Below, piece by piece: positions 47,394 through 61,694 of a DNA stretch of 64,000 bases (the first letter of the stretch is position 1; the number at the start of each line of letters is the position of its first letter). The stretch lies in contig NZ_FZON01000018.1 of the NCBI RefSeq assembly GCF_900188425.1, positions 1-64,000 on the forward strand. Reading direction: 5' to 3'. Position numbers and translations under genes: made by a program. The DNA comes from Antarctobacter heliothermus. Lineage in GTDB: Bacteria; Pseudomonadota; Alphaproteobacteria; Rhodobacterales; Rhodobacteraceae. The notes beneath the pieces are model-generated. The model saw only the letters and a list, made by a program, of their open reading frames with translations, did not search any database and was not told where the DNA came from.

Positions 47394-47421
47394 CGCGCCG
47401 CTCATCATGAGGGAAACGGAC

Positions 47422-56290: not shown

Positions 56291-56960
56291 GTTCCTCCAA
56301 TAGCGCCTTGGCGGCCATCTGCTCGGCCTGCCGTTTCGATCCTGCCGTGGCCTGCGCCGTCTCACCCGATGGCAGCCTTGCCTCGATGGTAAAAACGGGC
56401 GCGTGGTCCGGTCCGCTGCGCCCGGTTTCGACATACGCGGGCGGCGGCAGGCCGCGTGCCTGTGCCCATTCCTGCAGGCTGGTCTTGGCGTCCTTGGCGT
56501 CTTCGTCCACGCCGTCGATCCGCGCGCCCCAGAGGCGCAGGATCAAGGCTCGCGCCACGTCAAAGCCCGCATCGACATATACGGCTGCAATCACCGCCTC
56601 CATCGCATCGCCGAGCAATGCCTGCTTGCGCCGCCCGCCCGACAACTGTTCCGAGCGGCCCAGTTTCAACGCGTCCCCCAGCCCAATCTCACGCGCGACA
56701 TCGGCGCAGGTCTCTTTGCGCACCAATGCGTTGAAGCGTGGCGCAAGCTGGCCTTCGGCGGCGGCACGATCCCGTTCCAGCAGCGCCTCTGCCATGACCA
56801 GACCCAGAACACGGTCGCCCAGAAACTCCAGCCGCTGGTTGTCTTCGCGTCCCGGACCCGAGCGCGAGGCGTGTGTCACCGCGCGCAGCAGCAGGCGCGG
56901 GTCAGCGAAATGATGGCCCAGCGCGCCCTGTAAAGTGGTCAGTTCTGCGGATAATTTCAT
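56277..56960 (-). CDS. rnc: Ribonuclease III
   Basis: Double-strand-specific RNase for rRNA and mRNA processing. The 227-residue protein has the RNase III signature [17 protein letters not shown] (about residues 40-56) and [17 protein letters not shown], with the catalytic Asp and Glu. A C-terminal double-strand RNA-binding domain has [18 protein letters not shown] and [18 protein letters not shown]. It is coupled to the upstream signal peptidase gene by ATGA overlap. Confidence 0.95.
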
Positions 56961-57925
56961 TCGACAGTCCTCAGCACGCGCCCGTCGCGCCCTTCACGAG
57001 AATAGAGCACCAGACGGACCCGGCCCGCAACCGCCGCAACCGGGACAAGGCCGACGCCTCCCGCACTTTGCGCGATCCGGCTGTCCAGTGAGTTGTCGCG
57101 ATTGTCTCCGAGGACAAAGGCAAACCCCTCGGGGATCTCTACCAAGGCAGTGAAATCGGTGGCCATGCCCCCGACATCGAGCACAGTGTAGGACGGGCCG
57201 CCGGGCAATGTTTCGATTGCGGCTAGTTTGCTGCAAATGTCACCTTCGATCACCGGCGTGACGCATAGAGGGCGGGTGCCCATTGCGGTGGCGCGATAAG
57301 GTTCGGTCCAGTCCGGGGCTGTGGCCTGCGGCACCGGAGTGCCGTTCAGGATCACAAGGCCGTCCCGCATCTGCACCGTGTCACCCGGCAAGCCGATCAC
57401 TCTTTTGAGAAAATCCTGCCCCGAGACCGGATGACGGAAGATCACGACATCGCCGCGCCGTGGGGCTGCGAATCTGCGGGTGGCAAGCACATAGTCACCG
57501 GGTTGCAGGGTTGGCGACATGCTGCCTGTCGGGATGATGAAGGGAGCCCAGAGTGCCCGGCTGGCCATCAACGCGACCAGACCCCAGACCAGTGCGCGAC
57601 CACCACGGTTGAACGGGCCCGGAGCGGCCTCGGGTCGAGTGCGGCGCGCCAGCATGACGATGACAAGGATCAGCGACAGCAGCGGGACCACCAGCGCCCA
57701 CATCCATTTGCCGGACCAGCCCATGGCGCGCAACCGCCGACGGGCATGGCCAAAGAACAGCATGATCGCCAGCGCCGACACCAAGGAGATGCCGGCCCCC
57801 GCAATACTGAGGGGCGGCGCCTGAGTTTGTGCCGCCACCAGCCCCGCAACAGGGATGACGGCCAGTGCAAACCGCCCGCGCCCTGTCAGGCCGTGCCAGT
57901 GCAGTGCCTCGCGGACAAAGCCCAT
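56957..57925 (-). CDS. Signal peptidase I with N-terminal DUF805-like membrane domain
   Basis: A 322-residue S26 peptidase. The catalytic pair is Ser135 in [11 protein letters not shown] and Lys174 in [10 protein letters not shown], followed by [11 protein letters not shown] (box E), so it should cleave secretory signals. The first 100 residues are unusual: [18 protein letters not shown], then two hydrophobic segments around [20 protein letters not shown]. This resembles DUF805, a small membrane family whose members carry a RRL-x-D/A-x-G-x-SGWW motif. It is the second of two tandem signal peptidase genes. ATG 57925 lies 10 bp after the first gene's stop; it overlaps rnc by ATGA. Confidence 0.85.
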
Positions 57926-57935
57926 GGTCGTTGGC

Positions 57936-58769
57936 TCAGTCGATCTTTTCAAAGAACCGATCGCCGCGCCATGTCCAGAAGTACAGCATCGAGCGGCCCG
58001 CCGATGAGAACATCACCCGGTCGGCCCGGCCGATCAGGTTCTCATAGGGGACAAAGCCCACGCCGTTGGCGATGCTGGGAACGCGACTGTCAGAGGAATT
58101 GTCCCGGTTGTCCCCCATGAAAAAGTAGTGGCCTTCGGGGACCGTATAGATCGGCGTGTTGTCCGATCCCTGCATGGAAATATTCAGGATAGAATGGCTG
58201 ACCCCGCCGGGTAGCGTCTCGATCAGCTTTTCCTTGATGCAGGCGGCGCCGTCACCAACCGTGCCATTGGCACAGCGCGGCCGCAGACCCTGCGGCCCTT
58301 GCGGGGCGGCGAGCTCTTCAAATGTGCCGTCCGGGGTGATTTCGACCGGTTGGCCGTCAATGTGCAGCACGCCGTTGCGCATCTGTATACGCTCTCCCGG
58401 CAGGCCCACCAGTCGCTTGATGAAGTCGCGCCCGGAAACCGGGTGACGGAACACCACCACATCGCCGCGCTGCGGTTCACCGCCGAACAGGCGCTTGTTG
58501 TCGCCGTCGGCCCAACCGCACAGATCCTGCGCGTCCACGTTGATGCCGATGCGCGGAATGATGACAGAGGGGCAGGAGGCGTAGGAATAGCCATAGGCCA
58601 TTTTGTTCACAAAGAGGAAATCGCCAATCAGCAGCGTGTCCTTCATCGACCCCGATGGAATCCAGAACGGCTGAAACAGGAGGGTTCGAAAGACGCCGGC
58701 GATCAGCAGCGCGTAGACAATCGTCTTGATGGTCTCCCAGAGACCGCCTTTTTTCTCTTCGGTTGCCAT
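57936..58769 (-). CDS. lepB: Signal peptidase I
   Basis: Removes signal peptides from exported proteins. The 277-residue protein has one membrane segment (TIVYALLIAGVFRTLLFQPFWI), catalytic Ser41 in PSGSMKDTL and Lys118 in RDFIKRLVGLPGE, and GDNRDNSSDSR as box E. An insertion with several Cys (about residues 64-160) lies in the periplasmic domain. The start at 58769 has AAGGGG upstream; the frame continues to 58829 without family resemblance. It is the standard lepB of the core cluster, just before a paralogue and rnc. Confidence 0.94.
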   Translation of the reverse strand: MATEEKKGGLWETIKTIVYALLIAGVFRTLLFQPFWIPSGSMKDTLLIGDFLFVNKMAYGYSYASCPSVIIPRIGINVDAQDLCGWADGDNKRLFGGEPQRGDVVVFRHPVSGRDFIKRLVGLPGERIQMRNGVLHIDGQPVEITPDGTFEELAAPQGPQGLRPRCANGTVGDGAACIKEKLIETLPGGVSHSILNISMQGSDNTPIYTVPEGHYFFMGDNRDNSSDSRVPSIANGVGFVPYENLIGRADRVMFSSAGRSMLYFWTWRGDRFFEKID

Positions 58770-58908
58770 ATGGCGAGCCCCTTGCCTGTCGTTCCGCCGT
58801 TTCATGGGCGGCAGGGCAGGGCGTGTCAAGGCGGGAGGTCCCGCCGTTGACCGGATGGCCGGGTGGACCTTACGCTGCGTCAGTGATTTCCAAGCCGGAG
58901 TAATTGCG

Positions 58909-61266
58909 GTGATTCGATTTTGTTTGTTGCTTGCCTTGCTTCTGGCGGGTTTGGGTGTTCAGGCCCATGCCTAGGACGCATGTGACTTCCGGCTGGACAG
59001 AACCAAGCAATTCGAAGCCACCTTCAAACAACTCCTTCTTGACGAGGCAGAGCAGGCTGGGGGCCTCTGGCAGCCTATTCGCAGGGCCCAGAAAGAGGTC
59101 AAGGATCTGGCGCGATTTGTCGGGCGGTTGGATGTTTGCCTGCGGACGTCCGATGGGCGGCAGGTCGAATACCTTGATCCGGTCGGCGGGTTCAGGGTCA
59201 AGAGTGACAAGTTCGTCGGACTCTGCACGGCCACCCTTTTGCCCGACAACCAGCTGATCACGGCCCGGCACTGCTATTTTGATGACCGTGTCGCCGCGTT
59301 GGGATTCACCGAAATCGAGGCAGTGAAGGTGCACTTCGACTTTCGTCAGGTGGACTTCATTGGCGATGTCCAAAGCTTTGATGTGTTGCCTGTCGAAGTT
59401 GCTTCTGTCACGGACGTTGATGCGATTATCCTGCAAGTCAACGGCGACGCCAACGGAGCGATGGGCGGGCATATTCCACTGATTTTTCAAACGCGAACAC
59501 AGCCGCGGGATGCACTGTTGATGATTCATCACCCGATTGCCCAGCCCACGCAGTTTTCCTCGGGCACCTGCGCCGTGGCCAGAGAGCAATCGGACCTACC
59601 GGATCATGCCCCCAACCTGCGGCACATGTGTGAAACTTTCGGTGGGTCTTCGGGCGCATTGATTCTGGATGCGGATGAACGCGTCGTGGTGGGCCTGCAT
59701 CAGGGCACAGATGTGAAACCCGATGCCCGGGGCAGGCTGGACGGGTTCAACATCGGGTTCAAGTTTGACCCGGTGAACTTGGCGCTGGGACTGGCCTTCG
59801 AGCCGCTAAACGTGGTCGAGGGCAGGCTGGACGGAGTCCTGGCGCTGCGGGGACTGGACCGGAAAAGGACCGTTCTGGAAGACGTTGCATCGCGTTATCC
59901 GGGCACAAAGGTGGCGGCAAGGGCCGCGGGAATGTTGCAGGCATTGCCCGAACGGGACATCGACTCCGAGGCGCTTGCGGCGCTGGAGGCGGTCGGGAAG
60001 ATCGCCGATCCTGCGCGACGAAAGGCGGCGCTGGATCAGGTCGGGCGTGACTTTGACGGCACGCAGGCCGCGCGACAGGCCAAACGCCTGCTGGCGCTAA
60101 TGCAGCCCAAGCAGAAAACGCGCGACGAACATGCGACCGACTGGCTCGTATTGGCTCTGCAGATCACCGATGACGCCTGGCAGCGTGCACTGCTGGAGGC
60201 AATCGTGTCGGAGTTTGACGGGACGGCGGCGGCCGGGAGCGCGGCGGCCATGCTGGCGAAGATGGCTGTGGCCAATCGCGTACCCAAACAGGTGGTTGAG
60301 CCCAACCCCTCAATCGGCCCAATTGTGGCGATGACTGTCAAACAGGATGGGTCCGGCGATTTCCGCACCATCGCTGATGCGGTCAAGGCAGCTGAACCGG
60401 GCGCACGGATAGAGATTTACCCCGGCACCTATCAAGGAGGTGTTGATGTTGACAAAGCTCTTGACCTTGTCGGGATCGGAGATCGGGACAAGATCATCTG
60501 GGAGGCCAAGGACGATGCTGTCATCCATTGGACTGCCGGGTCCGGCCGCATCGCCAATCTAAGCCTGCGTCAGTTGGGCGGAAAATTCCACAGCGTCAAT
60601 TTTGACGGCGGCTCTGCACTGCTGGAAGACTGCGATCTCACCTCGCTGGGGTGGGCCATTGTGGCAATCCACAAAAGGGCGGATCCAGTGCTGCGCGGCA
60701 ACGTGATACACAATGGAAAGCAGGGAGGTGTCTTGGTTTTTAACAAGGGCCGTGGCCTGCTGGAGAAGAATGAGATCTACGGCAATGGCCTTGCAGGGGT
60801 TTCTATCAAGACCGATGCTGACCCGGTGCTGCGCGGCAATGTGATCCGCGATGGAAAGCAGGGAGGGGCCATGATCTATGAAAGGGGCCGTGGCCTGCTG
60901 GAGAACAATGAGATTTTCGGCAATGCCTTTTCTAACGTCGAGATCCGAATAGCGGCGGATCCGGTGCTGCGCGGCAATGTAATCCGTGGTGGTAAATACA
61001 GCGGCGTCTTTATTCACGACAAGGGCCGTGGCCTGCTGGAAGAGAATGAGATCTACGGCAATGCCCAAAATGGCGTTTCGATCGGGTCCGAGGCAGATCC
61101 GGAACTGCGCGGCAACGTGATCTCTGGCAATACCTACCATGCCATTGAGATCTATGACGGTGGCAAAGGCACCATCGTCGGCAATGATCTGCGCGGCAAC
61201 GTGCGTGGCGCGTTTGATGTCGAAATAACGGCCGGCGATGTCATCCGCCGCGACAATCAGGAATAG
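58909..61266 (+). pseudogene. Secreted trypsin-like protease / beta-helix protein interrupted by TAG after its signal peptide
   Basis: Read from GTG 58909 (GGAG eight bases upstream), the frame gives a signal peptide MIRFCLLLALLLAGLGVQAHA, then TAG at 58972-58974, then about 760 open codons to 61266. After the stop come DACDFRLDRTKQFEA, a serine-protease domain with TARHC (catalytic His), DVDAIIL (Asp) and GGSSGALI (nucleophile Ser), then three helical repeats (LEDVASRYPGTKVAARA and two like it). A pectinesterase-like start (DGSGDFRTIADAVKAAEPG) and a right-handed beta-helix end the protein. One C-to-T change (CAG to TAG) explains the lesion. Without readthrough only unexported downstream starts (for example near 59128) are left. 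Confidence 0.75.
60678..61110 (+). repeat. 138-bp tandem coding repeats of the beta-helix
   Basis: Three repeats of 138 bp (46 residues) are visible: GGGCCGTGGCCTGCTGGA starts at 60747, 60885 and 61023. Each unit reads DPVLRGNVI... then GRGLLE.NEI.GN.. as two 23-residue coils. The first unit begins at about 60685 and a fourth, less complete unit runs past 61110. Confidence 0.8.
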
Positions 61267-61668
61267 TCAGCCCTTCAGCCGCGCTTCGATCACCACAAAG
61301 GCCTGCGCCCAGGGGTGATCGTCGGTCAGGGTAACATGGATGATCGCCTCGTGCCCCGCAGGGGTCATCGCGTCAAGCCGTTCGCGCGCCCAGCCTGTCA
61401 CCTCCATTACCGGCTGGCCGGTGTGCAGGTTGCTGACGGCCATATCCTTCCACGCGATGCCCATGCGCAGGCCTGTCCCCAGCGCTTTGGAACAGGCTTC
61501 TTTCGCGGCCCAGCGTTTGGCGTAGGTGCCTGCCACATCGCGGCGGCGCTCTGCCTTGTGCTGTTCCACCTCGGTGAAGACGCGGTTGCGAAAGCGGTCA
61601 CCGAACCGCTCCAGCGTGCCGGCGATGCGGTCGATGTTGGCCAGATCGGTGCCGATGCCAAGAATCAT
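61267..61668 (-). CDS. acpS: Holo-[acyl-carrier-protein] synthase
   Basis: Attaches 4'-phosphopantetheine from CoA to a Ser of acyl carrier protein. The 133-residue protein has the metal/CoA site in [15 protein letters not shown] (Asp8) and the second in [14 protein letters not shown] (Glu), typical of the trimeric AcpS group. The start at 61668 is the family start; a TTG at 61674 is an alternative. It lies in the alphaproteobacterial pdxJ-acpS-lepB neighbourhood, although two genes separate it from pdxJ here and the pseudogene from lepB. Confidence 0.94.
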
Positions 61669-61694
61669 CTGCAATATGTCCCTGCGCGGGTGAT

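Follow-up and report, generated by a model that had tools for sequence, protein, structure and literature searches.

A gene for a trypsin-like serine protease, periplasmic or secreted and ending in a beta-helix module, has most probably been silenced recently in Antarctobacter heliothermus, by a nonsense mutation directly behind its signal peptide. The gene lies between lepB and acpS in a stretch of 64,000 nucleotides at the start of contig NZ_FZON01000018.1, which is called the window here (Table 1). On the forward strand, GTG 58909 opens a signal-peptide frame of 21 codons (VIRFCLLLALLLAGLGVQAHA, C-terminal AHA), followed immediately by TAG 58972-58974. Behind this codon the frame continues as DACDFRLD... 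for 763 open codons until it reaches its natural terminator. Thereby the preliminary description is confirmed in its signal peptide ending in AHA with an in-frame TAG directly after it, and in the uninterrupted frame behind the TAG, for which it had given a slightly different length (760 codons). VIRFCLLLALLLAGLGVQAHA was called a signal peptide on its sequence and on its conservation in relatives, 20 of the 21 residues being the same in the sister species of the same genus (G002).

Table 1. Features of the protease gene and its neighbours, in positions of the window
Feature	Position	Strand	Basis
lepB (signal peptidase I), divergent neighbour, synteny anchor	57936..58778	-	G002 comparison
CGGAG, Shine-Dalgarno-like	58896..58900	+	sequence; also in G002 by alignment
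Signal-peptide coding stretch VIRFCLLLALLLAGLGVQAHA, GTG start	58909..58971	+	sequence, G002 comparison
In-frame TAG, first mature position	58972..58974	+	CGG (Arg) in syntenic orthologue; other examined homologues stop-free
N-terminal Cys segment and trypsin-like (Trypsin_2) domain	58975..59790	+	Pfam, alignment
Linker, putatively helical	59791..60300	+	sharp divergence from G002 from ~59788
Right-handed parallel beta-helix module (Beta_helix, NosD-like, para_beta_helix repeats)	60340..61263	+	profile matches
Natural terminator of the gene, TAG	61264..61266	+	sequence
acpS (holo-ACP synthase), downstream neighbour, synteny anchor	61267..61674	-	G002 comparison

The Shine-Dalgarno sequence (GGAG about 10 bases in front of GTG 58909), the start codon, the catalytic residues and the reading frame are all intact in the TAG-bearing copy. 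An unselected frame of 763 codons would stay open by chance with a probability of only about 6e-13, given its composition, indicating that it once coded for a protein; it also matches its homologues over its length. An antisense open reading frame of 239 amino acids spans the junction (58870-59589) and is open in the sister species as well. We took it for a by-product of codon usage.

In the TAG-bearing copy, translation would start at GTG 58909 and yield the 21-residue signal peptide. Release factor RF1 would then terminate at the UAG, so that presumably no protease is exported. The next conventional start in this frame comes about 50 codons later, and a protein made from it would lack the signal peptide and stay in the cytoplasm.

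The intact gene is predicted to encode a secreted serine protease of the Trypsin_2 type, judging from a profile match and the His-Asp-Ser residues. The Trypsin_2 domain was found at residues 85-238 with 27.6 bits, which is exactly the Pfam cut-off (27.6), and Beta_helix at residues 607-749 (E 2.5e-36). His99 (codon 59269), Asp149 (codon 59419) and Ser226 (codon 59650), assigned by motif in mature numbering, stand in columns conserved across all aligned homologues. The Pfam matches and these columns bear out the intact protease and beta-helix described before, whereas the helical repeats claimed with them gave no match to Pfam models in the TAG-bearing copy. Several cysteines are conserved in the homologue alignment and would suit an exported protein. 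A single-sequence AlphaFold model of the protease domain reached a mean pLDDT of 35 and was set aside. At protein level, a scan of genome contigs gave distant beta-helix matches only, the junction sequence had no match in viral contigs, and a search of the literature turned up no relevant named family of this architecture.

Among the homologues examined, the copy in this genome alone has the TAG, and in no other is a stop conserved at position 58972. The sister species carries a syntenic orthologue at the same lepB-acpS site, with about 92% protein identity in the protease part, an intact signal peptide and CGG (Arg) where the TAG stands. The junction is free of stops in homologues from three other congeneric genomes (same site) and from five genomes belonging to other genera; the paralogues in G000 (the genome studied here), G002 and G003 are open across it, too. 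Counting paralogues, a dozen further homologues besides that of the sister species are open at this place. When the N-terminal region of the G002 protein, signal peptide included, was searched in 395 genomes of the order, six matches were obtained, and an internal stop was present solely in the TAG-bearing copy. The signal peptide lies in the same place in the homologues; homologues that begin behind the TAG and have another signal peptide, which would have spoken against the first interpretation, were not encountered. The first mature residue differs between homologues (R, E, F, L, Q). Gln, encoded by CAG and previously assumed to be the original residue, is thus among those seen, but the position is not uniformly Gln, the closest orthologue has Arg (CGG, two nucleotide changes away from TAG), and CAG is no more than a plausible original codon.

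A stop absent from the intact orthologues in a frame otherwise undecayed is what a recent nonsense pseudogene looks like. Of the options considered in the preliminary description, a very young pseudogene is now the best supported, the stop being private and both the syntenic sister and all examined homologues being open.

Over the protease part, dN/dS against the sister species is 0.12, a value which averages over the whole divergence and is blind to when the stop arose. Derived amino-acid changes, assigned with outgroups, number 6 for the TAG-bearing copy and 9 for G002 (5 unresolved). Hence there is no excess of amino-acid change on the TAG-bearing lineage, which fits a decay that had no time to accumulate; a low dN/dS would be expected just as well if selection had continued through readthrough. 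A neutral frame of 763 codons should acquire a second disabling change within about 1-4% divergence, varying with the assumed indel rate, and the nucleotide divergence between G000 and G002 is roughly 10%. Therefore either the stop arose late compared with the divergence of the two species, or selection still acts, or the base is incorrect. From the same expectation we infer a young age of the nonsense mutation. The genome contains at least 10 paralogous protease matches, and because of these the loss of this gene may be tolerable. The evidence gives no reason to regard the position of the TAG exactly at the signal-peptide junction as more than a coincidence. Between 58909 and 59300, dS against G002 is about 0.14 after the junction, far below the values of lepB (0.52) and acpS (0.47), which suggests recombination or extra constraint in this part.

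The main rival to a recent null allele is an error of sequencing or assembly, or a consensus that fixed a minority base. In this case the true codon would be a sense codon and the gene intact and expressed. The assembly is a draft of 159 contigs, one base change parts the open from the closed frame, and there is no sign of relaxed selection. We nevertheless consider an error rather improbable. No other real interruption was found across the window in comparison with about 45 G002 frames, which argues, if weakly, against poor base quality. The TAG is not located within a homopolymer, and it differs from the CGG of G002 at two positions, so that a lone error does not explain the whole difference. 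Apparent second interruptions, e.g. near 47404, turned out not to be broken genes, being frames on the wrong strand or in the wrong phase or frames with over-extended starts. Another was a spurious frame fusing two genes (glnK-like and amtB-like, named by eye).

Alternatively it might be that the UAG is functional, a few ribosomes passing it, the protease being secreted at a low level and the stop acting as a brake. The preserved frame, the catalytic residues and the low dN/dS would agree with this, and one study (PMC7918605) reports in-frame stops with dN/dS below 1 to be widespread among bacterial genes. Yet the authors of that study find such stops mostly short-lived, and the dN/dS, as an average over the whole divergence, cannot date the stop. 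RF1 is present and scores above its curated cut-off. None of the 43 tRNA genes of the genome, found with the Rfam tRNA model and typed with ARAGORN, has the anticodon CTA, so none of them reads UAG. The 38 window genes shared with G002 end in TGA (27), TAA (7) and TAG (4), and the protease gene itself also terminates in TAG. From the intact RF1, the tRNA set and these terminators it follows that TAG is an ordinary stop in this organism. Amber recoding does not agree with a genome which keeps RF1, uses TAG as terminator and possesses no tRNA for it, nor conserved programmed readthrough with a stop present in no homologue examined. The amber readthrough raised earlier is thus left unsupported, and we regard it as a distant rival. 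It is similarly far-fetched that selection has set the UAG as an off or low position, so that a costly secreted protease is metered by occasional readthrough or by alternation of TAG and sense alleles within the population; if true, the metering would act at a site where species exchange the C-terminal module of the protease. Least probable of all is a restart behind the TAG giving a protein that lacks the leader, stays in the cytoplasm and has taken on a new role: in-frame start codons such as TTG 59128 (opening a frame of 712 amino acids) and GTG 59323 are present, but TTG 59128 is CTG in G002 and is preceded by no Shine-Dalgarno-like sequence, every intact homologue keeps the signal peptide, and the conserved cysteines suit export.

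As a recently silenced gene, the stop-codon case matters little, being one more instance of an ordinary event. It carries a caution, namely that a complete-looking frame is no proof of readthrough. The better lead is the lepB-acpS locus, a site between two housekeeping genes which, depending on the related species, is occupied by a secreted protease with differing C-terminal modules or by nothing. We compared the site (58779-61266) with the syntenic loci L032, L036, L037, L038, L094, L095, L097, L110, L111 and L112. Between G000 and G002, the flanking genes show 96% (lepB) and 94% (acpS) amino-acid identity. The module attached to the same-site protease is a beta-helix in G000 and G025, SBP_bac_8 in G001 and G004, and a pair of PDZ domains in G005; the C-terminus in G002 is uncharacterised and shows a weak similarity (E 0.003) to a paralogue that contains SBP_bac_3. 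The protease adjoins lepB in G256 (beta-helix) and G196, with acpS located on another contig, and in G003, G007 and G030 the site is empty, with a gap of about 130-200 bp between acpS and lepB. The proteases of G000 and G005 are about 45% identical compared to 91% for lepB, and in a tree the protease of G000 and G002 clusters with the one from G196, a genome of another genus, although the branch of G196 is long. The pattern resembles replacement, or an exchange of modules, at one fixed site, and it makes the locus a tractable case of module exchange and of repeated gain and loss of a secreted enzyme.

Some further observations concern the same region. The nucleotide similarity to G002 (locus L009), about 90% before, ends abruptly after the protease domain, from 59788 onward, the C-terminal half being replaced. 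Downstream of the G002 gene there is a frame named by eye as an IS110-like transposase. Beside the protease gene, at 56957-58829, signal peptidase I is encoded twice in succession, by lepB paralogues of about 36% identity. The trypsin-like matches in G000 (at least 10) have varied C-terminal modules and are located on contigs C78, C90, C112, C115, C117, C132 and others; one, of 1159 amino acids, has homologous beta-helix stretches.

Like other secreted Trypsin_2 (PF13365) proteases, the protein has a signal peptide and the His-Asp-Ser residues, occurs in multiple copies in the genus and belongs to a group with variable C-terminal modules. It differs in the stop and in the beta-helix, which replaces the SBP and PDZ modules of its congeners at the same site. 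With beta-helix proteins (Beta_helix PF13229, NosD PF05048 and the mannuronan C5-epimerase structures 4ozy and 4nk6) it shares the repeats at about residues 592-749. It scores 51 bits as NosD compared to an NCBIfam cut-off of 300, and its match to the epimerases is weak and covers part of the chain only. The in-frame stop polymorphisms described in PMC7918605 are similar in the lone TAG in an otherwise intact gene, the conserved flanks and the low dN/dS, and the worked example given there is a TAG/CAG alternation. In contrast to these, the stop reported here occurs in one genome and stands exactly at the signal-peptide junction.
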